Shown here: in pieces, positions 1,130 through 23,571 of the stretch
Position numbering within the stretch: the first letter of the stretch is position 1
How the letters are laid out: every line of letters begins with the position of its first letter
Assembly (NCBI GenBank): GCA_027314665.1
Contig: DAHVAK010000078.1
Coordinates: 1-32,237 of the forward strand
DNA length: 32,237 nt
Reading direction: 5' to 3'
Source of the DNA: Spirochaetales bacterium
GTDB taxonomy: Bacteria; Spirochaetota; Spirochaetia; DAHUYW01
Notes under the pieces: model-generated
What the model saw: only the letters and a program-made list of their open reading frames with translations
Told to the model about the DNA's origin: nothing
Databases searched by the model: none
Made by a program: the position numbers and the translations under genes

Positions 1130-1140
1130 GAGGGTTCACG

Positions 1141-2856
1141 ATGCTGACTAAACTGACTATTCGCAACTTCAAGCTCTTCGACCATGCGGAAATAGAGCTT
1201 GGCGAGCGCGTCGTGCTCATCGGTCCGAATAACGCGGGGAAAACCTCGGCGCTGCAGGCACTTGCTCTGTGGGAAATCGGGGTCAAACGGTGGCTTGAGA
1301 AACGCGGCAGCGGCGAAGTGCCCGAGAAACGACCCGGTGTGACCATCAACCGCCGCGACTTGATCGCCGTGCCAATCCCGGCGGCGAATTTGCTCTGGCG
1401 CGACCTGCACGTTCGCGAAGGTGTTCGAGAAAACGGCAAGACCCGAACCCAGAATGTGCTCGTGGAGGTCTTAGTCGACGGTATCGACGACGGCAAGTCC
1501 TGGTCGTGCGGACTCGAGTTTGACTACGCAAACGAGGAGTCCTTCTACTGCCGGCCGAGTAGGGGCACCGAAGGAAGGCGGATGGAGGTGCCGGCTCGCC
1601 TTTCCGACCTGAAGGTTGCCTATCTGCCTCCCATGTCGGGGCTTTCACCCCGGGAAGACCGTCTCGAAATGGGCGCAATAAACGTGCGCATGGGCGAGGG
1701 TCGAACCGCGGAGGTTCTTCGCAACCTCTGCTGGCAGGTGCTCGAATTGCCGGAGGGCACAGAAAAGTGGCGTTCTATTGTCGACAAAATGCAATCGCTC
1801 TTCGGCATCCAGATGGACGAGGCAAAATACGTCAAGGAACGGGGCGAAATTGTGATGACGTTTCGCACACGTGACGGCATCCCGCTTGATCTTTCCTCAA
1901 GCGGGCGCGGCCAACAGCAGACTCTCCTGCTGCTGGCGCATATGAACGCGCACCCCGGAGCCGTCTTGCTCCTGGACGAGCCCGATGCGCACCTCGAGAT
2001 TCTGCGGCAACGGCAGATCTACCAGTTGCTCATGGAACAGGCCGCCGAGACCCGGAGCCAAATCATCGCGGCAAGTCACTCCGAGGTGATGCTGAATGAA
2101 GCCGCAGATCGCGACCTTGTGATCGCTTTCGTCGGGACCCCCCACCGGATCGACGATCGGGGAAGCCAAGTCTTGAAGGCTCTGAAGGAGATCGGCTTCG
2201 AGCACTACTATCTCGCAGAGCAAGTCGGCTGGGTGCTGCAGTTGGAAGGTTCGACCGATTTGGCGGTATTGCGTGCCTTCGCGGAGAAGCTGAATCACCC
2301 AGCGAAGAAGGAATTGGAACGCCCTTTTGTTCACTACGTAGCAAACCAACCGCGCAAGGCCTTGGAACACTTCCACGCCTTGTGGGAGGCAAAAGGCAAT
2401 CTGATCGGCATCGCGATTTACGATCACCTTGCCAACGAGCCGCCCGCCGATCCGAGTCTCGTGCAGATGATGTGGCGTCGCCGCGAGCTTGAGAATTACC
2501 TTTGCCAGAGAGAAACGTTAATGGCCTATGCGAAGGCTCAAAGCGATGACCGGCGCGGTCCACTTTTCACGACTCCGTGGCAAACGGCGATGGAGACTGC
2601 GATAAATGAGGTCGAAGGGGCCCTAAAGACCCTTGGAAGGCCGTCGCCCTGGGGACCCGAGATCAAGGCGAGCGATGAGTTTCTTGAGCCTGTTTTTGCG
2701 AAGTTCTTCGAGATTCTTGCGCTCGCCAATTTGATGCGCAAGACCGATTTTCATTCCCTCGTTCCGTATGTTGCGGAGGATGCCATAGATGTGGAAATCA
2801 CGGAGAAGCTCGACGCTATCGTGAAGACCGCGGCCGTTGCGAGGCCGGCACGATAG
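1141..2856 (+). CDS. OLD-family-like ATPase with degenerate TOPRIM-like C-terminus
   Basis: A 571-residue ABC/SMC-like ATPase. The ATG at 1141 is preferred over an upstream TTG at 1126 because it has GAGAGG just upstream and gives the normal MLTKLTIRNFKLF opening. Walker A is GPNNAGKTS (residues 28-36), a signature-like LSSSGRGQQQ follows near 251-260, and Walker B VLLLDEPDAHLE near 276-287. A C-terminal TOPRIM-like region has LEGSTD (near 368), IAIYDHL (near 425-431) and RRRELENYL (near 446-454). In OLD-type nucleases the second strand normally carries DxD; here it reads D-H-L, so metal-dependent cutting may be lost. The gene sits between mod and res with gaps of 11 and 29 bases, pointing to a role in the same antiphage response. 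It may sense or regulate rather than cut; this is inference from context. Confidence 0.85.
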   Translation: MLTKLTIRNFKLFDHAEIELGERVVLIGPNNAGKTSALQALALWEIGVKRWLEKRGSGEVPEKRPGVTINRRDLIAVPIPAANLLWRDLHVREGVRENGKTRTQNVLVEVLVDGIDDGKSWSCGLEFDYANEESFYCRPSRGTEGRRMEVPARLSDLKVAYLPPMSGLSPREDRLEMGAINVRMGEGRTAEVLRNLCWQVLELPEGTEKWRSIVDKMQSLFGIQMDEAKYVKERGEIVMTFRTRDGIPLDLSSSGRGQQQTLLLLAHMNAHPGAVLLLDEPDAHLEILRQRQIYQLLMEQAAETRSQIIAASHSEVMLNEAADRDLVIAFVGTPHRIDDRGSQVLKALKEIGFEHYYLAEQVGWVLQLEGSTDLAVLRAFAEKLNHPAKKELERPFVHYVANQPRKALEHFHALWEAKGNLIGIAIYDHLANEPPADPSLVQMMWRRRELENYLCQRETLMAYAKAQSDDRRGPLFTTPWQTAMETAINEVEGALKTLGRPSPWGPEIKASDEFLEPVFAKFFEILALANLMRKTDFHSLVPYVAEDAIDVEITEKLDAIVKTAAVARPAR

Positions 2857-2885
2857 CGTAGGCGGACTCAAAGGAAGAACACGAC

Positions 2886-5885
2886 GTGAAGCTCCAATTC
2901 GACCCCAATCAGCAGTTTCAGCTCGACGCCGTCGCCTCGATCTTCGACCTTTTCGACGGGCAGCCGCTGGGCGCGCCAGACTACGCGGTGATAAGCGCGG
3001 GTACGATGGAGGGGCTCTTCGCCGGGCAGGAGCGGAGCGAGCTTGGCGTCGGGAACCGCCTCCTCCTCGCCGACGACAAGCTCCACGAGAATCTGCGGAC
3101 CGTCCAGCTTCGCAACGACATCGAGGTGAGCGACTCCGCCGCGCCGGCGGAGGGGTGGGAGCTTTCCGACCTCCCGGGCAATCAGTTGCGGGCCTGTCCC
3201 CACTTCTCGGTGGAGATGGAGACCGGCACCGGAAAGACCTACGTCTACCTTCGTACCATATTCGAGCTCTCCCGCCGCTACGCCTTTCAGAAGTTCATCA
3301 TCGTCGTCCCAAGCGTCGCCATCCGTGAAGGAGTGCTCAAGAACATCGAGATAACGCGCGACCACTTCCGAGCGCTCTACAACAACCTGCCCTTCGAGCA
3401 CTTCGTCTACGACGCGAAGAGGGTCAATCGGCTGCGGCAGTTTGCCGTGAGCAACACCCTGCAGATCCTCGTCATCAACATCGATGCCTTCCGCAAGAAC
3501 TTCACCGGGACCGAGGCCGAGCAGAAGAGTAACGTCAACTACAAGGAGAACGACAAGCTCTCCGGGAGGCAGCCCATCGAGTTCGTCCAGGCTGCGCGTC
3601 CGATCGTTATCATCGACGAGCCACAGAGCGTGGATGCGACCGACAAGGCTCAGGAAGCGATCAAAGCCCTGAATCCGCTGTGCACCTTGCGCTATTCGGC
3701 AACCCATCGCAACCCCTACAACCTCGTCTACCGCCTGGATCCGGTGCGCGCCTTCGAGCTCAAGCTGGTGAAGCAGATCGTGGTCGCAAGCGCCGCGGCG
3801 GACGGGGCGGCAAACGAAGCCTTCGTGCGCGTCGAGCAGATCGACTACAAAAACGGGATCAAGGCAAAGGTGCGCATCCACCTTCAGACTCCCGAGGGGC
3901 CGAAAGAGAGGCTCGTCACGGTGAAGCAGGGCGCCGATCTCTTCGCGCTTTCCAACGAGCGCTCCGCGTATCGAAGCGGCTTCGAGGTGGCCGAGATCAA
4001 CGCCGAACCGGGCGGCGAGCAGGTGCGTTTCTCAAACGGCCGGACGCTCCGCCTGGGGGAGGAGATCGGGGGGATGCGCGAGGATGTCTGGCGGATTCAG
4101 ATCAAGCACACCGTGCGACGCCACCTTGAAAAGGAGCTCCAGGTGCGCTCGCTCGGGCTCAAGGTGCTCTCGCTTTTCTTCATCGACCGGGTTGCGAATT
4201 ATCGCGACTACGAGAGCGACGGAGCGCCGGCCAAAGGCAAGTTCGCCCTCGCCCTCGAGGAGGCGCTTTCCGAGCTCGCCCGGGATGAGCGCTACCGCGG
4301 GCTCTCCTGGTTGAACGAGCCTCCCGAGAGGCTCCACAACGGCTACTTTGCCGCGGACCGCAAGAGGGTCGGCGCTACGGTCATCGAGGTGCTCAAGGAC
4401 ACCCGCGGCGACACCCAAGCCGACGACGAGGTCTACAACCTCATCATGAAGGACAAGGAGAGGCTCCTGTCGCTCGATGAGCCGCTTCGCTTCATCTTCA
4501 GCCACTCGGCCCTGCGCGAAGGGTGGGACAACCCGAACGTCTTTCAGATCTGCACCCTCAACGAGACCCGCAGCGCGATGAAGAAGCGCCAGGAGATCGG
4601 CCGGGGGCTTCGCCTCCCGGTGAACCAAGAGGGCGTGCGCCTTGTCGATGAGTCCGTGAACAAGCTCTACGTGATGGCAAACGAGAGCTATGAGGATTTC
4701 GCCCTCGCCCTCCAAACCGAGTACGAGGAGGATTGCGGGGTCACCTTCGGCAAGGTCCCCTTTACCGCGCTCGTGAAGCTCACCCGCATCGTCGACGGAG
4801 TGGAGCGCCCAATAGGGCGCGAGGTTGCGCAAGCGATTCGCATCGCCCTGGTCGAGCAGAAAATGCTCGATTCCGCCGGGCGCATTCAAGCCGGCTTCGA
4901 TCCCAAACGGAAGGATTTCAAGCTGGAGCTCCCCGAGGCGCACCGCGACCTTCTCCCTGCGGTGGTCGACCTCCTCGCAAGCTACCAGCTTGAGCGCCAC
5001 ATCCGCCGCGATCGCGATGAAGGCGTCAACCGGCTCAAGAAAGAGATCATCCTGACCCCCGAGTTCAAGGCGCTGTGGAACCGGATCAAGCACAGGACCA
5101 CCTACCGCGTCGAGTTCGAGACGGAGACCCTCGTCGGCCAGGCCGTACAGGCGATTCGCCGAATGCCGAAGGTCGAAGCGCCTCGCATCCGCATCGCCGC
5201 AGGCGAGGTCGAGGTGACCAAGGCCGGCGTCGCCACCCGAGCGACGAGCGTTGCCGAAGAGCATCCGCATCTCCGCGTGCGCGCCCTGCCCGATATCCTC
5301 GCCTACCTCCAGAATGAGACCGAGCTCACCCGCTCGACGCTCGCTCGCATTCTCAAGGAGTGTGGACGGCTCGCCGAGGTATTCGTCAACCCGCAGCGCT
5401 TTCTCGACCAGGTCGCGGCTCTTCTTAAGTACGAGCTGCACCGCCTGCTCGTCGACGGCATCAAGTACGAGCGCCTCGACGGTTCGCTCGCCGATGCCGA
5501 ATGGGAGATGCTTCTCTTCAAGAACGAGGAGCTCGTCAACTATCTCAACGCCATCGAGGTGCAGAAATCCGTCTACGAGTACGTCGTCTACGACTCGGAG
5601 GTCGAGCGCGAGTTCGCGAAGAAGCTCGACGAGCGCGAGGACATCAAGCTCTTCGTGAAGCTCCCCGGCTGGTTCGAGGTCGACACCCCCGTGGGAAAGT
5701 ACATCCCGGACTGGGCGATTTTGAAAGACGACGGGACGGCGCTCTACCTCGTGCGCGAGACGAAGGGCACACGAGACTTCCTGAAGCTCCGGACGACAGA
5801 GGCGGACAAGGTGCACTGCGGGCAGCGGCACTTCGAGACCCTCGGGGTGCCCTTCGCCGTGGCAGTTTCGGCGGATGACGTCTGA
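2886..5885 (+). CDS. res: Type III restriction endonuclease subunit (Res)
   Basis: A 999-residue superfamily 2 helicase-nuclease, the restriction subunit that works with Mod, using ATP hydrolysis before cutting DNA. The start is GTG at 2886, preceded by AAGGAAG. Walker A METGTGKTY lies near residues 110-118, the motif II variant IIDEPQSVD near 241-250 and a motif VI-like QEIGRGLRLP near 568-577. The C-terminal PD-(D/E)xK nuclease reads PDWAILKDDGTALYLVRETK (near 941-960), with D and E-x-K in place. Length is normal for the family and no break is seen. The gene is the third of the mod-ATPase-res operon. The same frame stays open past the stop (see the small ORF at 5937). The intact nuclease and helicase motifs suggest a working enzyme, provided the part of mod outside the window is intact. 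Confidence 0.95.
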   Translation: MKLQFDPNQQFQLDAVASIFDLFDGQPLGAPDYAVISAGTMEGLFAGQERSELGVGNRLLLADDKLHENLRTVQLRNDIEVSDSAAPAEGWELSDLPGNQLRACPHFSVEMETGTGKTYVYLRTIFELSRRYAFQKFIIVVPSVAIREGVLKNIEITRDHFRALYNNLPFEHFVYDAKRVNRLRQFAVSNTLQILVINIDAFRKNFTGTEAEQKSNVNYKENDKLSGRQPIEFVQAARPIVIIDEPQSVDATDKAQEAIKALNPLCTLRYSATHRNPYNLVYRLDPVRAFELKLVKQIVVASAAADGAANEAFVRVEQIDYKNGIKAKVRIHLQTPEGPKERLVTVKQGADLFALSNERSAYRSGFEVAEINAEPGGEQVRFSNGRTLRLGEEIGGMREDVWRIQIKHTVRRHLEKELQVRSLGLKVLSLFFIDRVANYRDYESDGAPAKGKFALALEEALSELARDERYRGLSWLNEPPERLHNGYFAADRKRVGATVIEVLKDTRGDTQADDEVYNLIMKDKERLLSLDEPLRFIFSHSALREGWDNPNVFQICTLNETRSAMKKRQEIGRGLRLPVNQEGVRLVDESVNKLYVMANESYEDFALALQTEYEEDCGVTFGKVPFTALVKLTRIVDGVERPIGREVAQAIRIALVEQKMLDSAGRIQAGFDPKRKDFKLELPEAHRDLLPAVVDLLASYQLERHIRRDRDEGVNRLKKEIILTPEFKALWNRIKHRTTYRVEFETETLVGQAVQAIRRMPKVEAPRIRIAAGEVEVTKAGVATRATSVAEEHPHLRVRALPDILAYLQNETELTRSTLARILKECGRLAEVFVNPQRFLDQVAALLKYELHRLLVDGIKYERLDGSLADAEWEMLLFKNEELVNYLNAIEVQKSVYEYVVYDSEVEREFAKKLDEREDIKLFVKLPGWFEVDTPVGKYIPDWAILKDDGTALYLVRETKGTRDFLKLRTTEADKVHCGQRHFETLGVPFAVAVSADDV

Positions 5886-11578: not shown

Positions 11579-11661
11579 TGTTGACAATCGAGACCGTCCG
11601 ACAGGGAGCAATAGCGAAGGTGCATGAAAGCATATACGTTTCTCATGAAGCATGGTATGCT
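11579..11661 (+). promoter_or_regulatory. Candidate control region of the vapBC-type operon
   Basis: TTGACA occurs at 11581-11586 but no good -10 lies at normal spacing. Closer to the gene is the perfect inverted repeat GCATggtATGC at about 11650-11660, directly before the ribosome site. A related direct repeat, CATGAAAGCAT then CATGAAGCAT, spans 11622-11653. Ribbon-helix-helix antitoxins usually bind such short repeats to repress their own operon. The operator role is inferred. Confidence 0.35.
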
Positions 11662-11678
11662 CTCACCGGAGGATTGAC

Positions 11679-11957
11679 ATGGCCAATCTTCAGGTACGTG
11701 ACTTGGACGATAAGCTCTACGAGTCGCTTCGGGCCCGTGCCGCACACGAAAGACGCTCTATTAGCCAAGAGGTCATTCACATATTGGAGAAGTACTTGTC
11801 GCTGCCGACTGCATACGACCTAAATCCCACCGACGAGTTTCTGAAATTGGCGGGAAGCTGGGAGGAAGGCGGAACGGCGCAGGAGATCGTCGCAAAGATT
11901 CGGAAGGGCAGAAGAAACTCCCCACGGTTCACTCGTTCTCATGAGCTATTTGATTGA
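11679..11957 (+). CDS. vapB: VapB/FitA-type antitoxin, ribbon-helix-helix
   Basis: A 92-residue antitoxin starting MANLQVRDLDDKLYESLRAR at an ATG six bases after GGAGG (11668-11672). The N-terminal 45 residues are an Arc/FitA-like ribbon-helix-helix: a short strand (LQVRDL), then helices including HERRSISQEVIHILEKYL, giving operator binding and dimerisation. The C-terminal tail (near 50-92, including WEEGGTAQEIVAKIRKG) is of the kind that lies across the toxin's active site. Its last 17 bases overlap the toxin gene, the usual arrangement of translationally coupled pairs. The pair has lower GC than the surrounding genes, which suggests transfer. Confidence 0.88.
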   Translation: MANLQVRDLDDKLYESLRARAAHERRSISQEVIHILEKYLSLPTAYDLNPTDEFLKLAGSWEEGGTAQEIVAKIRKGRRNSPRFTRSHELFD

Positions 11958-12339
11958 CACCGATATCATCATCTACAGCCTAAAGAATCACAGGCAGGTA
12001 GTGGAGAACTTCAACACCCACCGAAACGCACCAAAGTCCCTGTCGGTCATAACGTACGGCGAATTGGTCTATGGGGCACGAAAGTCACGGAACGTAGTAA
12101 AGAATCTCGGGATGACCCACCGAATAGCGGAGCTGTTCCCGATCATACCAATATCACCGGCTATCATGGAAACGTTCGGCGAGACAAAAGCTACGCTGGA
12201 GAAGCTGGGTGCGACCATTGACGACCTGGACTTGCTGATTGCATCTACGGCTTTGACGCACAATCTCACCCTCGTGACTAACAACGAAAAGCACTTCCGA
12301 AGAATAAAGGGTCTGGAAATCGAGAACTGGGCAACGTAA
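11941..12339 (+). CDS. vapC: VapC-type PIN-domain ribonuclease toxin
   Basis: A 132-residue PIN-domain toxin, a metal-dependent ribonuclease held inactive by the preceding antitoxin. The expected acidic residues are all visible: D in MSYLIDTDIIIYSL (residues 6 and 8), E in VITYGELVYGA (near 41), D in IDDLDLLIAS (near 95-98) and the final TNNEKHF region (near 113-119). Length is normal for the family. The ATG at 11941 lies inside the antitoxin gene. A hand count of 11941-12000 gives 24 of 60 G+C (40%), and 33 of 60 in the next line, well below the genes to the right. The pair appears intact and is flanked by decayed genes, which may mean it helps retain this accessory segment. Confidence 0.92.
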   Translation: MSYLIDTDIIIYSLKNHRQVVENFNTHRNAPKSLSVITYGELVYGARKSRNVVKNLGMTHRIAELFPIIPISPAIMETFGETKATLEKLGATIDDLDLLIASTALTHNLTLVTNNEKHFRRIKGLEIENWAT

Positions 12340-12820: not shown

Positions 12821-14152
12821 CTACCTCCAGTAGCTCTTGGACGCGGCGAGGCGCTCCGAGCACTCCTTCAGAAGCCCCAGCTCGTAGAGCACGTCGAGGA
12901 TGGTGTAGCGCCGGCGCATGGTCTGGGCGAGGGGGATCGTGGCGACGGCGCGCTCGCGCGTGAGGGCGATCTCCTCGGGGGCGGTCGGAACCCCCGCCGC
13001 GCGAAACATCTCTCGAAGCTCGCCGTAGGGGATGAGCTGCCCTTTGAGCTTCTCGGAGAGGCCCGGCCAGCGCTCGCGCAGAAGCGCAATTCTTCGGTCG
13101 AGCTCGTCGCGCTCGACCCACTTCGCCCTGCACTCGATGACCGCCTGCTCGGCCTGTTCGCTGCCGCCCCAGGCGGCGCGCACCTCGCGCTCGCGCTCGG
13201 CCCAGCTCGGCCATGAGGAGAGGTGCGACTCCACATCGCGGTGCGGAAGATCGATCGAAAGGAGAATCTCGTAGAGGGCGGTCGTCCCGAGGGTGCCGAT
13301 CGCAACCTTGAAGCCGTGGGAGACGGGAACCCCGTTCTTGGTGAGGTGCTGCATCTCCCAGACGTGGGAGAGGAGATGCTCGGCCCCGGAAGCGGGCCGG
13401 GAGGCCTTCATCGCCTGCATCGCAAAGCCGGTGAGGGCGAGGCCGGTGAAGACCCGCCCGAGGGCCGCCGGGGAACCGGCGGCAAGCTCCGAGGGGCGCT
13501 CGAGCCAGCCCCGAAGTCCCTCTTGGACCATGGGCCAACCGACGGGATGGAGCGGATCGATGCCGAGCGCGTCGGCAAGAATCCAGTCCGCGCCCGAGGC
13601 GATCTTCGCGGCGAGGTCGGCGTAGCCCGCAGCGGCCATCGGCGGCGGGGCGTTGCGCAGGATCTCCGTGTCCGCGACGACGGCGAGGGGGGCATCGCAG
13701 GCGAGGGTTTGCTTGAAGCCGTCCTTGACGAGCGCGGCGCCGAAGGAGGTGTAGCCGTCCACCGAGGCGGCGGTCGCGACCACGACGTAGGGCCGCTTTA
13801 GCTCGTGGGAGGCGCGCTTCACGAGATCGTTGATCGTGCCCGAGCCGACCGCGATCGGCACCTCGTCGCCTTCGCGAAGGAACTCGCGCACCCGCTCGAC
13901 GTTCGCATAATCCGGGCCGAGCATGGGGCGCCCTGGGAAGATGAGGGTTCGGGGCGGCGCAAACCCATCCGCCGCAAGATGATCGGCGATGCGCCGCCCG
14001 GCAGCCGCCTGGGTGTTCTCATCCGCCACGATTGCCGCGCCTCGCCCGGCGAAGCGGCGGCGGAGCACCTCGCCCACTCGATCGATCGCGCCCGTCTCGA
14101 CGACGAGCTCCTTGGTTTCGGTCGCCTTGGCGACCGCTTCTTTCAGCTCCAC
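12821..14152 (-). CDS. sn-glycerol-1-phosphate dehydrogenase-like protein (AraM/EgsA family)
   Basis: A 443-residue member of the iron-alcohol-dehydrogenase superfamily closest in motifs to glycerol-1-phosphate dehydrogenases, which reduce dihydroxyacetone phosphate to G1P with NAD(P)H. Visible are GSGTINDLVKRASHEL (nucleotide-binding loop), VVATAASVDGYTSFGAAL, the metal-site aspartate in AAGYADLAAKIASGADW, SGAEHLLSHVWEM and a second histidine in VPVSHGFKVAIGTL. The metal ligands D, H and H are therefore present. It is about 50 residues longer than Bacillus AraM, mainly in the C-terminal part. It follows the iron-type dehydrogenase by 25 bases and is last in the minus-strand run led by PadR. 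In bacteria G1P feeds archaeal-type or PcrB-type ether lipids, but no lipid synthase is seen here, so another polyol phosphate substrate is possible. Confidence 0.8.
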   Translation of the reverse strand: MELKEAVAKATETKELVVETGAIDRVGEVLRRRFAGRGAAIVADENTQAAAGRRIADHLAADGFAPPRTLIFPGRPMLGPDYANVERVREFLREGDEVPIAVGSGTINDLVKRASHELKRPYVVVATAASVDGYTSFGAALVKDGFKQTLACDAPLAVVADTEILRNAPPPMAAAGYADLAAKIASGADWILADALGIDPLHPVGWPMVQEGLRGWLERPSELAAGSPAALGRVFTGLALTGFAMQAMKASRPASGAEHLLSHVWEMQHLTKNGVPVSHGFKVAIGTLGTTALYEILLSIDLPHRDVESHLSSWPSWAEREREVRAAWGGSEQAEQAVIECRAKWVERDELDRRIALLRERWPGLSEKLKGQLIPYGELREMFRAAGVPTAPEEIALTRERAVATIPLAQTMRRRYTILDVLYELGLLKECSERLAASKSYWR

Positions 14153-14177
14153 AAATAGCTCCGTTTGCTATGGCCCG

Positions 14178-15359
14178 TCAGAGTCGCTTGGCCATGATGG
14201 CGTAGATTTCGTCAGGCGAAAGCCTGACCGGCCCGTTCTTCACTCCCGAGGCGGCGGCGACCTCCCGCAAACCCTGCTCGCTTACGCCGAAGGCTCCGAG
14301 CCGCGGAACGCGCAGCTCCTCGACCCACCGCGCGAGGAGCGCGACGAGCCGCTCGCAGTTCGCCTCGAGGCTTCCGGCGTCGCTTCCGGAAAGGAGCGCT
14401 CCCGCCTCGGCGTACTTCGCCCGCGCGCATCGCTCCTCCTCGGAGCCGCCTGTGGCGAGGCGCTCGAGGTTCACGCGGGTCGCCTCGGCAACGAGGGTGC
14501 CGCACACCACGCCGTGGGGGATCGGGAACAGGCCCCCCATCGGCGAGGCGATCCCGTGCACGACCCCGAGCCCCGCGTTCGCGAGGACCACCCCGGACAG
14601 GAAGGCTGCGTAGCCCATCTGGGCGCGGGCGCCCACGTCGCTTCCGTCCTCGCGCGCGACGCGCTCGAAGGAGCCTCCTGCCGAGCGCAGGCCGCTGCGC
14701 GCGAGGGCGTCGGTGAGGGGGCTCGCGCTTGAGGAGACAAAGCCCTCAAGAAGCTGCGTGATCGCGTCGAGACCCGAGGCTGCTGTCACCTCTGGGGGGC
14801 AGCTCACGGCGAGCTCGGGGTCGATGATCGCCACATCGGGGACGTAGCTCTCGTGGCGGAGGGACTTCTTGAAGCCCCCGGGGCCGGGTCGGGAGATGAC
14901 CGCATTCTTGGTCGCCTCGGAGCCCGTGCCGGCGGTGGTCGGCAGCGCGACGAAGGGGAGCTTCTTGCCGGAAGGGGTTCGGCTGCCGACCTCCTCGAGG
15001 TAGTCGGTCACCGATCCCTCCTCCATCACCATGGCGGCGATCGCCTTCCCGGCGTCGATGACGCTGCCGCCCCCGATGGCGACGACCGCATCGGGGAGAT
15101 GACCGCGCAGATCCTGGACCGTTCCGTCGACAAAGGCGGGGTCGGGCTCGCCGGATGCGGCGACGCTCCGGGCGGCGATCCCATGCCCGCGGAGATCCCG
15201 TTCCAGTCGCTCCAAGCGATCCGAGGAGCGCAGGGAGCGCGAGCCGGTCACCAGGAGAATCCTCGTCGCCCTATGTACGGCCAGAAAATCGGGCAGGCTG
15301 CCCAGCCTTCCGGCGCCCAGATAGAGGGTCGGTGTGCGCGCAAAGGTGAAGGAGGTCAT
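14178..15359 (-). CDS. Iron-containing alcohol dehydrogenase
   Basis: A 393-residue group III (iron-dependent) alcohol dehydrogenase. The N-terminal half binds NAD(P) through VVAIGGGSVIDAGKAIA (near residues 91-107) and PTTAGTGSEATKNAVI (near 140-155). The C-terminal half supplies the metal site: D in ASGLDAITQLLEGF, H in GLGVVHGIASPMGG and H in FPIPHGVVCGTL. The length is normal. Enzymes of this family interconvert alcohols and aldehydes, and the substrate cannot be read from sequence. It begins 73 bases after the UbiA-type gene ends and is followed by a second member of the same superfamily, so the two may act on successive or related C3 compounds. Confidence 0.92.
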   Translation of the reverse strand: MTSFTFARTPTLYLGAGRLGSLPDFLAVHRATRILLVTGSRSLRSSDRLERLERDLRGHGIAARSVAASGEPDPAFVDGTVQDLRGHLPDAVVAIGGGSVIDAGKAIAAMVMEEGSVTDYLEEVGSRTPSGKKLPFVALPTTAGTGSEATKNAVISRPGPGGFKKSLRHESYVPDVAIIDPELAVSCPPEVTAASGLDAITQLLEGFVSSSASPLTDALARSGLRSAGGSFERVAREDGSDVGARAQMGYAAFLSGVVLANAGLGVVHGIASPMGGLFPIPHGVVCGTLVAEATRVNLERLATGGSEEERCARAKYAEAGALLSGSDAGSLEANCERLVALLARWVEELRVPRLGAFGVSEQGLREVAAASGVKNGPVRLSPDEIYAIMAKRL

Positions 15360-15432
15360 GGCGCGAGTATAGGGGCAAGGGAGAGCTCATGTAAAGGCGA
15401 GCGGGCCGGGTGCCTCGGCCCGCCATCCTGCC

Positions 15433-16326
15433 CTACCGGATGAACAGCCCCACCGCAACCAGCACGGGGGTGAGGATATTCGCGATCACGTTCATGCCCA
15501 TCGCCGGCAGAAGCTGCGTCGTGTCCTCGGCGTGCTTCGCGGCGCGAAGGACGGACAGGGCTCCGATCGGCAGGGTCGCAAGCCCAAGAAGGCTCCACGC
15601 GGGGAGCAGACCGGCGAGGACCCCTGCGCCGATGGAGAGATAGGCAAGCAGGAGGAAGAGCCCGTAGACGATGCTGCTCCTGCTCCTGCCGAGGGCTATG
15701 GGAAGACTTCTCCTCCCGATGCTCCGATCGGCGTCGACTTCGGGAAACTGGTTCAGGAGAAGGAGATTGTTCACGAGAAAGAAGGGGACCAGCGACGCGA
15801 CGAGGGCCGTCCACGAATAGCGGCCCGTGAGGGCGAAGTAGGTGCCCATCACCATCAGGGGTCCGAAGCCAAGGCCGGGACTGATGAGGCACAGGAAGGG
15901 GCGGCGCGTCAGCCACGGGGTGTAGCCGTAAATGATCACCATCCCCAACAGGCCTAGCGGAAGGAAGGAGAGCCCCCGGGTCGCGAGGAAGTAGGCGCCC
16001 ACGGCCCCGAGAATCGCCATGGTCGTGATGCCGGTGCCCAGGGCCCAGCGCTCCATGGCGGGCGCCGCCTGGAGGGTACCGCTCCCGCCGCTAAAGGGGG
16101 TCCGCACGGTTCGGAAGTCCAGACCGCTCTTGAAGTCAAAATACTCGTTGAGGCTGTTGACGCTGATGTGCGCCGCGAGAGCGGCGATGACCACCAGCAC
16201 GAGGTTGATCGCCTCCACCCGCCCGGTCGTCCAGACTGCGCTTCCCAGCCCCAGAAGGACGCAGGCCGGTGCAAGGATCAGGAAGGGTACCCGCATGGGG
16301 CCTAAGATTTGTTTCAGGCTCGTCAC
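15433..16326 (-). CDS. UbiA-superfamily prenyltransferase, MenA-like
   Basis: A 297-residue integral membrane enzyme with about eight or nine hydrophobic segments. The two Mg-diphosphate motifs of the UbiA family are clear: NSLNEYFDFKSGLD (near residues 57-70) and NQFPEVDADRSIGRRSLP (near 191-208). These resemble MenA, which prenylates 1,4-dihydroxy-2-naphthoate for menaquinone, more than the archaeal lipid enzyme, but related bacterial enzymes use other aromatic acceptors. The start is GTG at 16326 with AGAGGAG eight bases upstream. It follows the FAD/iron-sulfur gene by 13 bases, so the prenylated product (probably a quinone) may be the electron acceptor of that oxidoreductase. That link is inference. 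Confidence 0.88.
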   Translation of the reverse strand: MTSLKQILGPMRVPFLILAPACVLLGLGSAVWTTGRVEAINLVLVVIAALAAHISVNSLNEYFDFKSGLDFRTVRTPFSGGSGTLQAAPAMERWALGTGITTMAILGAVGAYFLATRGLSFLPLGLLGMVIIYGYTPWLTRRPFLCLISPGLGFGPLMVMGTYFALTGRYSWTALVASLVPFFLVNNLLLLNQFPEVDADRSIGRRSLPIALGRSRSSIVYGLFLLLAYLSIGAGVLAGLLPAWSLLGLATLPIGALSVLRAAKHAEDTTQLLPAMGMNVIANILTPVLVAVGLFIR

Positions 16327-16339
16327 GTACTGTTCTCCT

Positions 16340-19300
16340 CTATTTCCCCCGCGGCGTGTCGCCCTTTTCCACGAGGGCCGGTTGCCTAGCGGGCCTACCT
16401 CCCCGCAGATAGCTCACCAGCGGATCGCTCACAAGGGGCACGACGTCGGGAAGCATGAAAGGCATGAGGTTCGCCATCACCTTCGGCATGAGGGCGGGCA
16501 TCTGCTCGCGCATGTAGTCCGGCATGGGGACCGCCTCCGCGATGCGCTCGAGCATGCGCGGCATGACCTTCGCCATCATCCCGGGCAGCAGCAGGGGAAA
16601 GAGCACCGGAAAGAGGCGCTTCATGGCTGCGAGCATGGCTCCGCCGAGCCGTCCGGCCCGCCCCAAGGCTCTCATCATCGATCCCATCCCAAGGGGCATC
16701 GCATCGAGCAGCTCGCTCCACATCGTGCCCATGAGATCCGCGAAGCCCCGCGGGGTCATGAGGGCGATCATCGCCTCGAAGGTCCGCCATTGGCTCAAGA
16801 CCTCGGGGCGCGGATCGGGGAAGGTGTATCCGAGGGCGCGACAGGCGAAGGCGGCTAGATCGTGAACGGGCATCTTCACATCCCGCTTCTCGTCGCTCAC
16901 CCGCAGCTGGAACTGACAGCAGGGGCACAGGGCGAGCACGGCGTCCGCTCCGGCGTCCACCGCCTCGTTGAGGCGCCGCGCCCCGAGGTCGTGGGCGACT
17001 TGCGGCTCCTTGATGAGGGTGAGCACCGAGCCGCAGCAGTAGCCGTTCTCCCGGTTGTGGGCCATCTCGACGAGCTGCACCCCGGGAATCGCCTTGATGA
17101 CCTCGCGCGGCGCCTCGTACACCCCCGAGGCGCGTCCGATGTGGCAGGAGTCGTGCCAGCTCACCTTCACGTTCGCCGCGGGTCTCTTGAAGCGGAACCG
17201 CCCGGCCTTGATCTGCTCGGCGACTAGCTCGCTGTAGTGCTGGGTCTTGATGCCGTAGTCGATCCCGAGCTTCTTCGCCCACTGGGGATAGACCTGGCGC
17301 CACATCATGTCGCAGGCGGGACAGGAGGTGATGACCGTGTCCGCCCCGGCGGCCCGCACCGCAGCAACGTTCTTGCGGAGGGTCTCGGCGAAGAGCTCCC
17401 ATTTGCCTGCCACCAGCATGGGAGTGCCGCAGCAGTTCTCCTTTTCCCCAAGATAGGTGAACTCCGCGCCCGCCTCGTCCAGGAGCCGCACGGCGGCGAG
17501 CCCGATGTCCTGCTCGACGTAGCTCGCGGTGCAGCCGGCGAAGTAGACCGCCTGAGCGCGAGTCCCCGGCCCGTGCCTGTCCGTGAGGTCGACAGGGAAC
17601 CACGCCGCGCGATCGCTTCGGTAGCCGGCCCAGATGTTGCCCTCCTTCTCGATGGAGGAGGCCATCACCTCGAAGGGCGGGAAGGTCATCCCCTTCTTGT
17701 CGGGAATGAGCTTTCCTCGGAGCTTCATCCACGAGGGCTCGATCGGGAGCCCCTCGGAGCAGACACGGTCGCAGAGCTCGCAGGTGGTGCAGGCGAGGAA
17801 GGAGTCCACCATGAACTGGTCCCATTTCTCCCGGCCCTCGAGGAGCTCCCGCAGCCAGTACCACTTCCCGCGCGGCGATTGGCTCTCCCAGCCCCGGCCC
17901 GCGAACTGGGTGCATTCCTCGATGCAGTACCCGCACTGGGAGCAGGCGTAGGCGTTCCAAGCCACCTCGCCCGGCACCTCGCCCTTATCCTTCGTCGCAC
18001 GCTCGCCGATGCGCGATGCAACCCCGTTCCCGAAGGGGCGGATGAGCGGCTCGAAGAGGCTCGCGAGATTGAGCGCCTTGCCGATGAGCCCCTTGCCGAT
18101 AACCTTCCCCGGATTCATGAGCGCGGTCGGATCGATCTCGCTCTTGAAGCGGCGAAGCCGCCTCACGCGCTCCCCACCGAGCACCTCTGCGGCGCGCGCG
18201 GGAAAGTAGATCCCGGTCGAGTAGGGCCGGCCCCCGTGACGCTCGGCGATCCGCACGACCGTGAGCGACAGACCGAAGACCAGATTGTAGCCGAAGCGGC
18301 GCTGATCGCTCGGGATGAAGCCGAGGATGACCGCCTCCGGCTCCCCGCCCTCCCCTGAGCGCACGATGACCCCCTCCTTCACGAGGGGCTGCCTCACCTT
18401 CCGCTCCATCTCGGAGAGCGCGGCGCCCAAGCTGCGCAGAGGAACGACCACCTCCGAAGGGACGAGCGATGGCCCCAAGCGCTTCACGACCATCAGGTTG
18501 AAGCGATGCTCCCACTCGTGCTCGGCAACGCCCTGGCTTAAGGGCTCGCCTTCGAAGGTCCGAACCAGAGCGGGCACCGCGGAGCGCACCGCTCCCGCGT
18601 CGCGCTCGCGGAAGGCAAGGATGACGACGTACTTCTCCGGGAGAGCGACCCTTTCCTCGACAGGATGGCCGCCGTGCTCGCGCAGGGGCGACTGATTGCG
18701 GAGAGCGGCCATGCGCGGATTGATGAAGTGAAGCGACCAGATCGGAAGGCCCGAGGCGACCAGCGCCTCGACGGCCCCCTGCAGCTTCCCAGCATCGGCG
18801 AAGGCGAGCGCCATCACCTCGTGCCGGGAGAGCGGCTGCACCTTCAAGGTGACCCGGGCGATCAGACCCGTGATGCCCTCGGCATCGGAAAGGAGCTCGA
18901 GCTCCTCCCCTCGAAACTCCCACGGGTCGCCGTTCGGAAGCACGACCCTCGCGGAGACCACATTGTCGCGAAACCACCCGTACTCGTAGGAACCGAGCCC
19001 CGCTCCCCCTTGCGCAAGCCACCCCCCCACCGTCGAGCCGGGGGCGCTCGTCGGATAGAGCCTGAGCGCGAGGCCGTGAGGCGCGAGGGCTTCCTCGAGC
19101 TTCTTCCAGGTGATGCCCGGCTCGACCGTGACGGTTTGCCCCGCAGGATCGACCGAGAGGAGACGCCTCATGCGCGTGAAGTCGACGACGAGTCCCCGCT
19201 TCACCGGCACGGCGCCTCCGTAGCCGGAGGTGGCTTTGCCCCGAGGCGTGAGCGGAATCCGGTTCGCGAGAGACCACTGCACGAGCGATGCGAGCTCCTC

Positions 19301-19477
19301 CTCGCTTTCCGGCTGGACCACTCCATCGGGGGTGGCATCGCCGACAAATGGGTGCACGAGCGACGGCATGGCGGCGACGTCGTGAGCGTACAGGCGCCGC
19401 TCGGTCTTGCGGAAGTTGACCCGCGGTCCGAAGAGCTGCTGCAGGCTCTCGGCGGCGGTTGGGGATAGGGTCACCAT
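16340..19477 (-). CDS. FAD-linked oxidase fused to a [4Fe-4S]/CCG iron-sulfur protein, with a Met/Pro-rich tail
   Basis: A 1045-residue fusion. Residues about 50-480 are a GlcD-type FAD oxidase (LTPRGKATSGYGGAVPVKRG, then STVGGWLAQGGAGLGSYEYG). Residues about 508-575 hold two ferredoxin-type clusters: CSQCGYCIEEC and CTTCELCDRVC. Two heterodisulfide-reductase-like CCG domains follow: AGCTASY...NCCGTPM...CPAC (about 643-715), and DSCHIG...YCCGSVL...CPCC (about 773-852). The last ~155 residues are unusual: methionine- and proline-rich amphipathic stretches such as MPALMPKVMANLMPFMLP. Relatives oxidise 2-hydroxy acids (lactate, glycolate) or similar compounds and pass electrons to quinone. The ATG at 19477 follows GGAGG and lies two bases after the PadR stop, so the two are co-translated. 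The substrate is unknown. Confidence 0.9.
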   Translation of the reverse strand: MVTLSPTAAESLQQLFGPRVNFRKTERRLYAHDVAAMPSLVHPFVGDATPDGVVQPESEEELASLVQWSLANRIPLTPRGKATSGYGGAVPVKRGLVVDFTRMRRLLSVDPAGQTVTVEPGITWKKLEEALAPHGLALRLYPTSAPGSTVGGWLAQGGAGLGSYEYGWFRDNVVSARVVLPNGDPWEFRGEELELLSDAEGITGLIARVTLKVQPLSRHEVMALAFADAGKLQGAVEALVASGLPIWSLHFINPRMAALRNQSPLREHGGHPVEERVALPEKYVVILAFRERDAGAVRSAVPALVRTFEGEPLSQGVAEHEWEHRFNLMVVKRLGPSLVPSEVVVPLRSLGAALSEMERKVRQPLVKEGVIVRSGEGGEPEAVILGFIPSDQRRFGYNLVFGLSLTVVRIAERHGGRPYSTGIYFPARAAEVLGGERVRRLRRFKSEIDPTALMNPGKVIGKGLIGKALNLASLFEPLIRPFGNGVASRIGERATKDKGEVPGEVAWNAYACSQCGYCIEECTQFAGRGWESQSPRGKWYWLRELLEGREKWDQFMVDSFLACTTCELCDRVCSEGLPIEPSWMKLRGKLIPDKKGMTFPPFEVMASSIEKEGNIWAGYRSDRAAWFPVDLTDRHGPGTRAQAVYFAGCTASYVEQDIGLAAVRLLDEAGAEFTYLGEKENCCGTPMLVAGKWELFAETLRKNVAAVRAAGADTVITSCPACDMMWRQVYPQWAKKLGIDYGIKTQHYSELVAEQIKAGRFRFKRPAANVKVSWHDSCHIGRASGVYEAPREVIKAIPGVQLVEMAHNRENGYCCGSVLTLIKEPQVAHDLGARRLNEAVDAGADAVLALCPCCQFQLRVSDEKRDVKMPVHDLAAFACRALGYTFPDPRPEVLSQWRTFEAMIALMTPRGFADLMGTMWSELLDAMPLGMGSMMRALGRAGRLGGAMLAAMKRLFPVLFPLLLPGMMAKVMPRMLERIAEAVPMPDYMREQMPALMPKVMANLMPFMLPDVVPLVSDPLVSYLRGGRPARQPALVEKGDTPRGK

Positions 19478-19479
19478 TT

Positions 19480-20094
19480 TCAGCTCCTCCGTTTCCTCGT
19501 TTGCGGGGAACGCGTCCCCCGTTTCTTCGAGGAGGTGAACGACGCCCAGCCCCTGTCCCGGATCTCATTCACGAGGCTTCGGAGCCAGCGCAATTCGCCC
19601 TCGAGATATCCTCTTCGATGATCGAAAATAGCCCGAACCAGGCCCGGTGCCGGCTCCCGGGAGCAGTCGCTCTCCCAGGCCTTCCTGCACTCTTCGAGCT
19701 GAGCCTCCACGACACGGATGCGGGCTTGCAGCAAGGCCAGGGACTGCTTGGCGCGCAGACCCTCGATGTATCCCATCGCCGAAAGCACCGTGTCGAATTG
19801 GAACAGGACGCGCTGGGAGGCCATGCCCTCGTCCTCGAGCATGCGCGCGAGGGCCTCTCTGCCCTCCTTCGTGATGGCGTAGACCGTGCGGGGCGGAGCG
19901 CTGCTCTCGGCCTCTTTCTTGGCCGAAACCAGGCCTTGTCCCTCAAGTCGTCGCAGAACCGCGTAGATCTGGGGAGTGCTCATGCTCGTGCAGTGCGCGA
20001 GATGCCCTTTGTCGAGGAATCGCCGCAGGTCATAGCCGTGAGCAGGCCGATCGCCAACCAAGGAGAGCACCAAAAAATCGTGCGCAGAAGCCAC
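19480..20094 (-). CDS. PadR-family transcriptional regulator
   Basis: A 204-residue repressor-type protein with an N-terminal winged helix (FLVLSLVGDRPAHGYDLRRF, then STPQIYAVLRRLEGQGLVSA, then RTVYAITKEGREAL) and a C-terminal helical dimerisation half (near residues 100-190). GTG at 20094 is chosen: it has GGAG about ten bases upstream and gives MASAHDFLVLSL, while an in-frame TTG at 20130 has no ribosome site. The tail is basic (KKRGTRSPQTRKRRS). It is the first gene of a run with the FAD/iron-sulfur protein two bases downstream, so it probably controls itself and that operon in response to a small aromatic or other ligand. Confidence 0.88.
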   Translation of the reverse strand: MASAHDFLVLSLVGDRPAHGYDLRRFLDKGHLAHCTSMSTPQIYAVLRRLEGQGLVSAKKEAESSAPPRTVYAITKEGREALARMLEDEGMASQRVLFQFDTVLSAMGYIEGLRAKQSLALLQARIRVVEAQLEECRKAWESDCSREPAPGLVRAIFDHRRGYLEGELRWLRSLVNEIRDRGWASFTSSKKRGTRSPQTRKRRS

Positions 20095-20123: not shown

Positions 20124-20155
20124 TATGCAACTGTTAGTTATTTAAGACATGCATA
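20124..20155 (-). promoter_or_regulatory. Candidate PadR operator
   Basis: TATGCA at 20124-20129 and TGCATA at 20150-20155 form a perfect 6-bp inverted repeat separated by 20 AT-rich bases, directly upstream of the padR start. Such an AT-rich patch in very GC-rich surroundings is where a promoter and operator would be expected. The function is inferred. Confidence 0.35.
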
Positions 20156-20351: not shown

Positions 20352-21776
20352 TCACCCCGCGAGGATTCGCTCGGCGGCGAGCTGCGCCTCGTGGATGCAG
20401 TCTCCGATTCCGATCCCCCGGTAGGAGCTGCCCACAAGCTGCAGGGAGGGGCGCGCCGCAAGGTGTTCCTCGAGCGCCGCCATTCGCTCGAGATGGCCGA
20501 CCGTGTACTGCGGCATCCCCTTCGGCCAGCGGTAGATGCGCACGAGCTCCGGCTCCGCCGAAAGCCCGAGGATCGCCTCGAGCTCCTCGAGCACGGTCTG
20601 CGTGAGGCAGGCGTCATCGAGCTCGCCGACGAGCTCCTGGTGATGCCCCCCTCCCACAAAGCAGCGAAGGAGAAGCCGCTCCGCGGGGGCGCGGTCGGAC
20701 CACTTGATGGAGCTGTAGGTCGCGGCGTTGATCCTCCTGCCCTCCGTGCGCGGGACGAGAAAGCCGAAGCCCGCAAGCGGGGCGCGGATATCCCCGCGCC
20801 GGAAGGCGAGCGAGATCGTGGCGACGGAGGTCCATCGGATCCGAGTGAGCTGGGCGGCAAGCTCGCCGTCGAAACCGCGCACGAGGGCCGCCGACTCGTG
20901 GGCGGGGGTGGCGAGGATGACCCGATCGGCCTCGAGGCTCTCGCCGCTCGCGAGGGTGAGGGCGTACCCTTCCCCTCGCGGCTCGATCGAGACGACGGCG
21001 GAATCGCGGCGAATCGCATCGCTTCCGAGAAACTCCGCGCAGGCCGCGGGAAGGGCCCCCATTCCCCCCTTGAAGCTCATGAAGTAGGTCATCGCCGCTC
21101 TCCCGGGCTCGGCGTGCTCCCGCGCGGGCCTCGAGCGGCTCCGCTCCCTCATGCCGGCGAGCATCCCGCGAATGAGGCTTCCGCTCTGCTGCTCGAGCTG
21201 TGCGAAGCGCGGGAAGGTGGCAAGCAGGCTCATCTCGCTGGGGTCCGAGGTGTGGATGCCGGCGACGAGGGGCTCGGCGATCTTTTCGAGACACTCCCTG
21301 CCGAGCCTTCGCGTGACGAAGCCCGCGAGACTCTCGTCGCCTCCCCCTCTGCGGGCAGGAATGAAGAGCTCCCTGCCCATCCGGAGCTTGCCCGGCCAGG
21401 TGATGAGCCGCGAAAGGGCTATCGGCCAGAAGGCGGTCGGCACCATGAGCATCACCCCTTCGGGCAGAGGGTGGAGGCGCCCGCGCGAGCAAATGAAGGT
21501 TCCCTTGAAGCGGTCGTTGGACGGGAGCATCTCGGCTCCGAGCCCGAGGCTCTCGGCGAGGCGCACGGTCCAGACCTTCTCGGGGAGAAAGCTATCGGGA
21601 CCGCCTTCGACTAGATAGCCGCCCTCCCGATCACTCACGATCTTTCCCCCGATGCGATCCTTCCCCTCAAGGAGCAGCACCTCGATGCTCCTCCCCCTCG
21701 CGGCGGCGCCGGCCTTCAGGTGCACCCCCGCAGCGAGCCCGGCGATCCCTGCGCCGACGATGACGACCCTCGGCAT
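20352..21776 (-). CDS. hemY: HemY-type protoporphyrinogen/coproporphyrinogen oxidase
   Basis: A 474-residue FAD amine-oxidase-fold enzyme that oxidises porphyrinogens to porphyrins in heme synthesis. The N-terminal dinucleotide fold is VVIVGAGIAGLAAGVHLKAG (residues 4-23), with LLEGKDRIGGKIVSD next. The family segments GGYLVEGGPDSFLPEK, EPLVAGIHTSDPSEMSLLAT and the C-terminal FAD contact LVGSSYRGIGIGDCIHEAQL are all present. HemY enzymes normally use oxygen as acceptor, implying at least some oxygen exposure. It starts 18 bases after the radical SAM gene, and the two form an operon. Whether the substrate is coproporphyrinogen III or protoporphyrinogen IX cannot be decided from sequence. Confidence 0.92.
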   Translation of the reverse strand: MPRVVIVGAGIAGLAAGVHLKAGAAARGRSIEVLLLEGKDRIGGKIVSDREGGYLVEGGPDSFLPEKVWTVRLAESLGLGAEMLPSNDRFKGTFICSRGRLHPLPEGVMLMVPTAFWPIALSRLITWPGKLRMGRELFIPARRGGGDESLAGFVTRRLGRECLEKIAEPLVAGIHTSDPSEMSLLATFPRFAQLEQQSGSLIRGMLAGMRERSRSRPAREHAEPGRAAMTYFMSFKGGMGALPAACAEFLGSDAIRRDSAVVSIEPRGEGYALTLASGESLEADRVILATPAHESAALVRGFDGELAAQLTRIRWTSVATISLAFRRGDIRAPLAGFGFLVPRTEGRRINAATYSSIKWSDRAPAERLLLRCFVGGGHHQELVGELDDACLTQTVLEELEAILGLSAEPELVRIYRWPKGMPQYTVGHLERMAALEEHLAARPSLQLVGSSYRGIGIGDCIHEAQLAAERILAG

Positions 21777-21794
21777 TCCTATCCTCCTGCCGCG

Positions 21795-22910
21795 TCAGTC
21801 GCGAAAGAGGATCGTGGGATAGGGGCAGAGCTCGTCGCTTTCCAGAGGATCGCCGCTTGCCGCGTAGGCCCGCGCGCGCGAGCCGCCGCAGATGAGGCGA
21901 TAGGGGCAGCGACCGCACTTCCCTTTCAGCGCCTCAGGGTCGCGCAGGGCGAGGAAGGGCTCCCCGGCCCGGTAGGTCTCCGTCAGACGGCTTGTGCGGA
22001 TATTCCCGCAGGCGATGGGCAGGAAGCCGCTGGGGAAAATCTCGCCCATGTGGGAGACGAAGACGATCCCGTTACCGTCGCGCACGCCAAGCCCCCGTCC
22101 GAAGGGCGAGCCGAGGAAGGCCTCGTCGCTCAGGCCCCGGGAGTGCATGCGCTGGTAGGAAAGACGCCGGACGTGATGGGCTTCGGTCGTCTTGATGATG
22201 AAGGGGGTCGCCCGCGACTCGCTCAGCTCGCACAGCCAGGTGAGCAGCCCCTCGCTCTGACCCGGCGAGATCTCCGTGAGCGAGCGCCCGCGCCCGGTTG
22301 CCACGAGAAAGAAGAGGGCCCATCGCCCGACGGGCAGAGTGGCAAGGAGGTTGTAGATGGAGGGGAGGTCCTCCGCCGTGGCGCCGGTCACCATCGTGTT
22401 GATCTGAAGCGGGATCGCGAGGGAGCCCGCCGCGAGAATTGCGGCGATAGTCCGTTCGAAGGTCCCCGGCACGCCCCGGAAGCTGTCGTGGCGACCCGCC
22501 TCCGATCCGTCGAGGCTCAAGGCGAGGCTGCTCACTCCCGCCTCCTTCAGGCGCTTGAGGACGCTCTCCGTGAGGCGGGATGTCGCCGCAGGGGTCACCG
22601 AGACCTCGATCCCCATGCTCCGCGCCTCGGCAATCAACTCGTAGAGGTCCGGTCGCTTGAGGGGATCACCCCCGGTGAGAACGAGGTGAGGGGGACGCTC
22701 CTCGTCGAAGGCGCGAATCTCGCGCAGCAGCGCGCGCCCCTCATCCGCAGAAAGCTCGAGGGGATCCGGCAGGGGATTGGCCTCGGCGCGGCAATGGATG
22801 CAGGCGAGGTCGCATGAGCGCGTCATCTCCCAATACACGAGCATCGGGGCCCGGTCGTAGACGAATCGCGAAGAGTAGGGCTGTAGGATCGCAGCTTGGC
22901 TGTCAGGCAT
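21795..22910 (-). CDS. Radical SAM/SPASM protein, TIGR04053-like
   Basis: A 371-residue radical SAM enzyme. The ATG at 22910 (MPDSQAAILQPYSSRFVYDR) is preferred because GGAG lies seven bases upstream and longer in-frame starts would run into the divergent deaminase gene. The SAM cluster motif is CDLACIHC (near residues 41-48), LTGGDP follows, and the C-terminal SPASM cluster reads CGRCPYRLICGGSRARAYA, then ELCPYP. The overall pattern matches the TIGR04053 family, which resembles heme-modifying radical SAM enzymes (AhbC, AhbD, NirJ). The co-transcribed HemY supports a tetrapyrrole or heme role, but the reaction is unknown. Confidence 0.88.
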   Translation of the reverse strand: MPDSQAAILQPYSSRFVYDRAPMLVYWEMTRSCDLACIHCRAEANPLPDPLELSADEGRALLREIRAFDEERPPHLVLTGGDPLKRPDLYELIAEARSMGIEVSVTPAATSRLTESVLKRLKEAGVSSLALSLDGSEAGRHDSFRGVPGTFERTIAAILAAGSLAIPLQINTMVTGATAEDLPSIYNLLATLPVGRWALFFLVATGRGRSLTEISPGQSEGLLTWLCELSESRATPFIIKTTEAHHVRRLSYQRMHSRGLSDEAFLGSPFGRGLGVRDGNGIVFVSHMGEIFPSGFLPIACGNIRTSRLTETYRAGEPFLALRDPEALKGKCGRCPYRLICGGSRARAYAASGDPLESDELCPYPTILFRD

Positions 22911-23023
22911 TTCAAGGCTCCACGTGCGGGGAGGGAGGTCCGCGAGGGCGGCGTATCCCGGCTCGACGCGCAACTGTAGCCCGCCGGATGCGTCAGGGTC
23001 AAGGAGAGGCGCCCGCCAGGAGC

Positions 23024-23053
23024 TTGCTTCGCCGGCGCGCCTGCGCGTAAGAT
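23024..23053 (+). promoter_or_regulatory. Candidate promoter of the deaminase-ridA-patB operon
   Basis: TTGCTT at 23024-23029 and TAAGAT at 23048-23053, 18 bases apart, lie 27 bases before the deaminase start in the divergent gap with the radical SAM gene. The spacing is acceptable and both hexamers are imperfect. Confidence 0.35.
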
Positions 23054-23079
23054 GGACCCATCCTGGTGCGGAGGCGGTG

Positions 23080-23571
23080 ATGGCGGAAGTGGGATATCGG
23101 CGTCCCTCGTGGGATGAGTACTTCGTGGAGGTTGCCGACGCGATCTCCAAGCGGGCCACCTGCGACAGGGGCAGAAGCGGCTGCGTCATCGCGCGCGAGC
23201 GCCAGATCCTCGTCACCGGCTACGTCGGCTCTCCGCAGGGGCTTCCGCACTGCGACGAGGTGGGCCATCAGATGCGGAAGGTCATCCACGAGGACGGCCA
23301 GATGTCGCAGCACTGCGTGCGCACGGTTCACGCCGAGCAGAACGCCATCTGTCAGGCGGCAAAGCGCGGGATCAGCATCGAAGGGGCGACTCTCTACTGC
23401 CGGATGACCCCCTGTCGAACCTGCGCGATGCTCCTCATCAACTGTGGTATTCGCCGAGTGGTCTGCGAGCGCAAGTACCACGCGGGAGCCGAGTCGGAGG
23501 AGCTGTTCCGCCTCGCCGGGATCGCCCTCGAATATCGAAGCGAAGAGCTCGAGACCTACACCAATCAGTGA
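23080..23571 (+). CDS. dCMP deaminase family protein (ComEB-like)
   Basis: A 163-residue zinc deaminase that would convert dCMP to dUMP on the route to dTTP. The ATG at 23080 gives MAEVGYRRPSWDEYFVEVAD and follows GGAGG by five bases. The zinc site is complete: HAEQNAI (near residues 86-92; H ligand and E proton shuttle) and PCRTCAMLLINCGI (near 110-123; two C ligands). The segment RSGCVIARERQILVTGYVG and the insert with HCDEVGHQM are typical of the dCMP rather than the cytidine deaminases. It is 21 bases from ridA, but there is no obvious pathway link. Confidence 0.9.
   Translation: MAEVGYRRPSWDEYFVEVADAISKRATCDRGRSGCVIARERQILVTGYVGSPQGLPHCDEVGHQMRKVIHEDGQMSQHCVRTVHAEQNAICQAAKRGISIEGATLYCRMTPCRTCAMLLINCGIRRVVCERKYHAGAESEELFRLAGIALEYRSEELETYTNQ

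Follow-up and report, generated by a model that had tools for sequence, protein, structure and literature searches.

The locus is probably a composite, comprising an acquired and autoregulated quinone module of three genes (PadR, FAD/Fe-S and UbiA; unit A) and an older, separate unit of two genes (Fe-ADH and G1PDH-like; unit B). The window, meaning the whole stretch of 32,237 nucleotides analysed, is contig C95 of genome G000, an assembly of 3.6 Mb in 299 contigs with 91% completeness and 6% contamination. Gene content, the boundary between the units, the presence or absence of the acquired block and family membership are established at the level of sequence. The apparent new pathway dissolves on this reading, and there is no need to search for a five-enzyme route.

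The features of the locus are collected in Table 1. As reported in the preliminary description, the five genes lie on one strand with gaps of 2, 13, 73 and 25 nt according to the ORF calls, and the gene identities given there hold in Pfam and NCBIfam profiles. The row of five was counted correctly but is incomplete, as PPO and a radical SAM gene are located upstream on the same strand and also belong to the acquired block. PadR (Pfam PF03551, 57 bits) is preceded by an AT-rich stretch containing TTGACA and an imperfect dyad, TATGCATGT..ACAGTTGCATA. The 473-aa ORF of the radical SAM gene (21795-23216) is overextended: the true start is at about 22910 and the residues beyond it are the antisense of dCMP deaminase. 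A candidate precursor peptide upstream of Fe-ADH in G001 and G039 was rejected, its match to the radical SAM N-terminus being this same antisense. Two other elements were identified in the window: a type III restriction-modification island at 26-5885, in which an AAA ATPase gene separates the C-terminal part of a methyltransferase (mod) from the restriction enzyme (res, 993 bits); and a FitA-like ribbon-helix-helix and PIN pair at 11652-12339, likely a toxin-antitoxin system, bordering the G1PDH-like gene.

Table 1. Features of the composite locus (positions in the window).
Feature	Positions	Strand	Length	Description
G1PDH-like	12821-14152	minus	443 aa	second gene of unit B
Fe-ADH	14178-15359	minus	393 aa	first gene of unit B
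Sigma-70-type promoter (predicted), TTTACA-18-TATACT	15366-15395	minus		leaderless, Fe-ADH unit
G+C-rich inverted repeat	15400-15424	minus		directly after UbiA stop; possible transcript end, weak, no T-run
UbiA	15433-16326	minus	297 aa	unit A
FAD/Fe-S	16340-19477	minus	1045 aa	unit A
PadR	19480-20094	minus		first gene of unit A; start GTG, alternative TTG at 20130
PPO, HemY type (protoporphyrinogen/coproporphyrinogen oxidase)	20352-21776	minus		TIGR00562
AhbD-like radical SAM/SPASM	21795-22910	minus		TIGR04053
dCMP deaminase	23080-23571	plus		ancestral divergent neighbour of Fe-ADH

The boundary between the two units is the 73-nt gap that separates UbiA from Fe-ADH. This gap contains a promoter-like site matching 10 of 12 consensus positions and ending 6 nt ahead of the Fe-ADH ATG; two such sites, including this one, were observed in 10.7 kb where 0.5 were expected. 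Hexamers and spacing are identical ahead of Fe-ADH in G001, the only other genome of the genus. Similar promoters end 6-7 nt before the Fe-ADH start in the class members L090, L093 and L095, and a perfect TTGACA-18-TATAAT was identified in one of these three. No good promoter was found at the corresponding position in G039, L092 and L091. The inverted repeat after UbiA forms a 9-bp stem in the fold and is not more stable than shuffled sequences (z -0.6 to -1.3). The promoters being matches to a consensus, the gap is a predicted unit boundary at which the Fe-ADH pair has its own conserved leaderless promoter. The single operon led by PadR, as initially described, is not supported in view of this predicted internal promoter.

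Unit B contains two dehydrogenases. Fe-ADH belongs to the fold family (134 bits, Pfam) and lacks the D-H-H-H metal site of the iron-containing alcohol dehydrogenases, having D-Q-S-H instead. The pattern D-Q-S/A/G-H is found in all seven sequences shown (the window, L031, L032, L073, L075, L079 and L081). By its residues, this is a subfamily with two of the four ligands replaced, conserved across the class and possibly metal-free. The G1PDH-like protein carries an Fe-ADH_2 domain, its best NCBIfam match is NAD(P)-G1PDH (PRK00843 at 154 bits, not reaching the curated cut-off of 413) and its best solved relative is the G1PDH 9h4x (E 1e-44). Residues D179, H259 and H279, which we take to be the metal residues of G1PDH as in the archaeal structures, are kept in 29 of 29 homologues, and the motifs GSGTIND and SVDGYTS are present. 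Some spirochaete homologues are located in arabinose-type gene clusters. G1P, if formed, could enter PlsY/PlsC lipids (PMC13400652). The two proteins, Fe-ADH and an AraM-type G1PDH-like enzyme, are read as a separate cytosolic redox pair.

The block formed by radical SAM, PPO, PadR, FAD/Fe-S and UbiA is wholly absent from the corresponding site in G001, where G1PDH-like and Fe-ADH are followed by the divergent dCMP deaminase, RidA, PatB and glyoxalase, in the order kept in the window. A search of G001 for FAD/Fe-S gave no homologue of full length, and one for UbiA gave nothing close. Fe-ADH adjoins dCMP deaminase also in G039, G122 and G022, and the adjacency is seen at L031, L032, L093 and L094; given this recurrent arrangement, it is simpler to suppose that the block entered between these two genes in the lineage of the window. 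The sequence flanking the block on either side is orthologous to that of G001, which argues against a foreign contig; a chimeric assembly could still be the source of the block. G+C composition does not distinguish the block from its flanks. In the tree of FAD/Fe-S the window protein clusters with a sequence from Chloroflexi (support 100/99); its composition is unusual and its branch rather long. A clade uniting it with the other three Spirochaetia sequences in the test was rejected (AU p 0.0027). The closest UbiA, with 65% identity, is from a Desulfobacterales genome, and the UbiA tree leaves the source unsettled (AU p 0.24). PPO (TIGR00562, 288 bits, cut-off 98) is a second HemY copy, the other being on G000:C82. 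The radical SAM protein reaches 416 bits with TIGR04053 (cut-off 395) and 282 bits with the AhbD model. HemY and the AhbD-like gene lie side by side at 20352-22910; ahbD genes are known beside hemY sets (PMC10548856).

The FAD/Fe-S protein comprises FAD_binding_4, FAD-oxidase_C, Fer4 and two CCG domains (Pfam), in the order of GlcD plus GlcF, followed by an all-helical tail rich in Met and Pro (about residues 880-1024). Its two CxxCxxC cluster motifs are invariant across 35 family sequences, HdrB matches appear among its search results and its AlphaFold2 model has a mean pLDDT of 81. The preliminary description of a hydroxy-acid-type oxidase stands for the FAD fold and fails for the active site, because the His-His-Glu metal ligands are absent throughout the family. 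In the reference enzyme LDHD, Mn2+ is bound by His398, His405 and Glu442, and alanine mutants of these are inactive (PMC10589216). At the aligned positions, compared by sequence alignment and not by residue-level structural superposition, the window protein has R373 and P380, and GGRPYSTG replaces the GEHG of LDHD; among 35 members P380, GG and TG are invariant, and 31 have R or K at the position of R373. By type the protein is thus a flavin/Fe-S dehydrogenase, its placement in the D-2-hydroxyacid class being supported for the fold only.

Homologues of FAD/Fe-S were identified in GTDB genomes at no fewer than 176 loci (at least 176), ranging over anaerobes, Methanoperedens, Chloroflexi and Syntrophaceae. 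Among the Spirochaetia the gene is full length in G039 and G036, cut by contig ends in G054 and G015 and broken by stops in G011. The gene directly upstream is often a regulator, ArsR in 28 of 85 loci and MarR in 6; an ArsR gene precedes FAD/Fe-S in G039, G036, G054 and G015. What the upstream regulator senses could reveal the substrate. A literature search on the family found nothing useful. What remains of interest in this locus is an unnamed, widely distributed family whose active site is altered yet conserved.

UbiA (Pfam, 88 bits) presents both Asp-rich motifs, NEYFDFKSGLD at 60 and NQFPEVDAD at 192, and its best NCBIfam models are those of MenA, all below cut-off (92 bits against 277). 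Among 148 Spirochaetia genomes, orthologues (44-49% identity) were identified beyond the window only in G015 and G039, on contigs other than those of FAD/Fe-S, and Fe-ADH lies on others again. These three genomes are all among the six carrying the FAD/Fe-S family, for which the chance under independence is 20 in 529,396 (about 4e-5), a figure whose real weight is much lower as G015 and G039 belong to one family and the independent events are few. UbiA at 38% identity or more is present in 13 of 50 FAD/Fe-S genomes. Direct adjacency of this UbiA and FAD/Fe-S occurs in the window only, the genes being apart in G039 and most hosts. An orthologue is followed by UbiE in five Dehalococcoidia, and L120, from Desulfobacterales, has the row UbiE-UbiA-ArsR-FAD/Fe-S with a UbiA of 26% identity; this row continues with an acyl-CoA dehydrogenase and an EtfB-like gene.

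Both the classical and the futalosine menaquinone routes were sought in the window genome: MenB, MqnA/D and MqnC were not found, the exceptions being a single weak match to PF02621 and paralogues with low scores, and these gene absences, like that of PcrB discussed below, are provisional in a genome 91% complete in 299 contigs. UbiE and cytochrome bd were identified, so that the head group would be scavenged or would come from an unrecognised route. Another Spirochaetia locus, L229 (G054:C322), has the row UbiA, CAAX-protease-like gene and UbiE, and MenB and MqnC were not found in that genome, where quinone auxotrophy or an unrecognised head-group route is possible. With UbiA and UbiE present but no head-group pathway recognised, it becomes a question which quinone these spirochaetes use.

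The single strand, the short gaps and the redox themes throughout would also suit one pathway, in which two NAD(P)-linked dehydrogenases and FAD/Fe-S work in succession on one substrate and feed electrons into a dedicated quinone supplied by UbiA, with PadR controlling the whole; transcription past the weak hairpin is possible. Such a pathway is very unlikely, since Fe-ADH has the conserved promoter described above, the pair occurs in G001 and G039 with none of the other genes alongside, FAD/Fe-S and Fe-ADH are on separate contigs in G039, G036, G054 and G011, and none of 80 FAD/Fe-S loci from other genomes has Fe-ADH or G1PDH-like in the flanks examined. A search for the five-gene set in other genomes found its members scattered or absent in relatives. 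Of the oxidation route with its own quinone initially proposed, the link between FAD/Fe-S and the prenyltransferase survives through co-occurrence and the L120 row; the single five-gene pathway is not supported. More improbable still is an archaeal-type ether-lipid route, with G1P coming from the AraM-like enzyme and a prenyl chain attached by UbiA, another early suggestion. The AraM-type enzyme with complete metal residues agrees with it. Among bacteria, Bacillus is known to have a G1PDH (cited in PMC13400652, PMC5059525), and archaeal-type lipid genes occur in the FCB group (PMC7852524). Against it, PcrB/GGGP synthase has no match in G000 (91% complete) or G001, UbiA resembles MenA and not DGGGP synthase (92 bits with MenA models, 27 with the GGGP geranylgeranyltransferase model), UbiA orthologues adjoin UbiE and the genes fall in separate units.

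A closer competitor, which we nevertheless consider rather unlikely, takes UbiA as a bystander in the acquired block, with FAD/Fe-S donating electrons to a soluble carrier of ferredoxin or heterodisulfide type instead of a quinone. CCG domains also serve heterodisulfide reductases, and this agrees with the HdrB matches; in addition, most FAD/Fe-S genes lack a prenyltransferase neighbour (a UbiA-family gene is in the flanks of 1 of 80 loci from other genomes) and no close UbiA orthologue was found in those Methanoperedens genomes with FAD/Fe-S that were tested. The co-occurrence in three of three Spirochaetia, the 13-nt gap and the L120 arrangement are opposed to it.

In the composite reading, which we prefer, unit A would have been inserted as a block together with the neighbouring heme unit of radical SAM and PPO. 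Until it senses a ligand, PadR probably keeps its own transcript repressed. The fused flavoprotein would oxidise a small organic substrate at FAD, and the electrons would pass two [4Fe-4S] clusters and then a CCG centre of the GlpC/HdrD type to reach quinone at the membrane, possibly helped by the helical tail. The MenA-like UbiA may make or remodel the quinone used by FAD/Fe-S, its head group being presumably scavenged or made by a route not yet recognised. Unit B, apparently older and with its own promoter, would be a cytosolic NAD(P)-linked pair with no mechanistic tie to unit A. A further extension is speculative and, taken as a whole, quite unlikely: a mobile respiratory module that regulates itself and serves anaerobes auxotrophic for quinone, its FAD/Fe-S dehydrogenase having an active site not of the hydroxyacid type and its own prenyltransferase turning a scavenged or unrecognised head group into the quinone that the dehydrogenase reduces.

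Several known systems resemble parts of this locus. FAD/Fe-S has the domains of the GlcD/GlcF glycolate dehydrogenase and of the LdhH-type lactate dehydrogenase, and its FAD half has the fold of mouse LDHD (Foldseek E 8e-23, TM 0.78 by target); it differs from all of these in the additional Met/Pro-rich tail and in NCBIfam scores far below cut-off, and from LDHD in having R/K, an invariant P and the GGRPYSTG motif in place of His398, His405 and Glu442. The G1PDH-like protein resembles AraM/EgsA in its best solved relative and its metal residues, whereas about 70 extra residues (298-371) are unaligned and its partner is Fe-ADH instead of arabinose genes or PcrB. UbiA is similar to MenA, the DHNA polyprenyltransferase, in its Asp-rich motifs, its top models and the UbiE adjoining its orthologues, and dissimilar in its low score and in a genome without recognised DHNA-forming enzymes. 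Finally, a prenyltransferase and UbiE without a complete head-group pathway are reminiscent of quinone auxotrophs such as Lactiplantibacillus plantarum (PMC10746273), a member of a different phylum.
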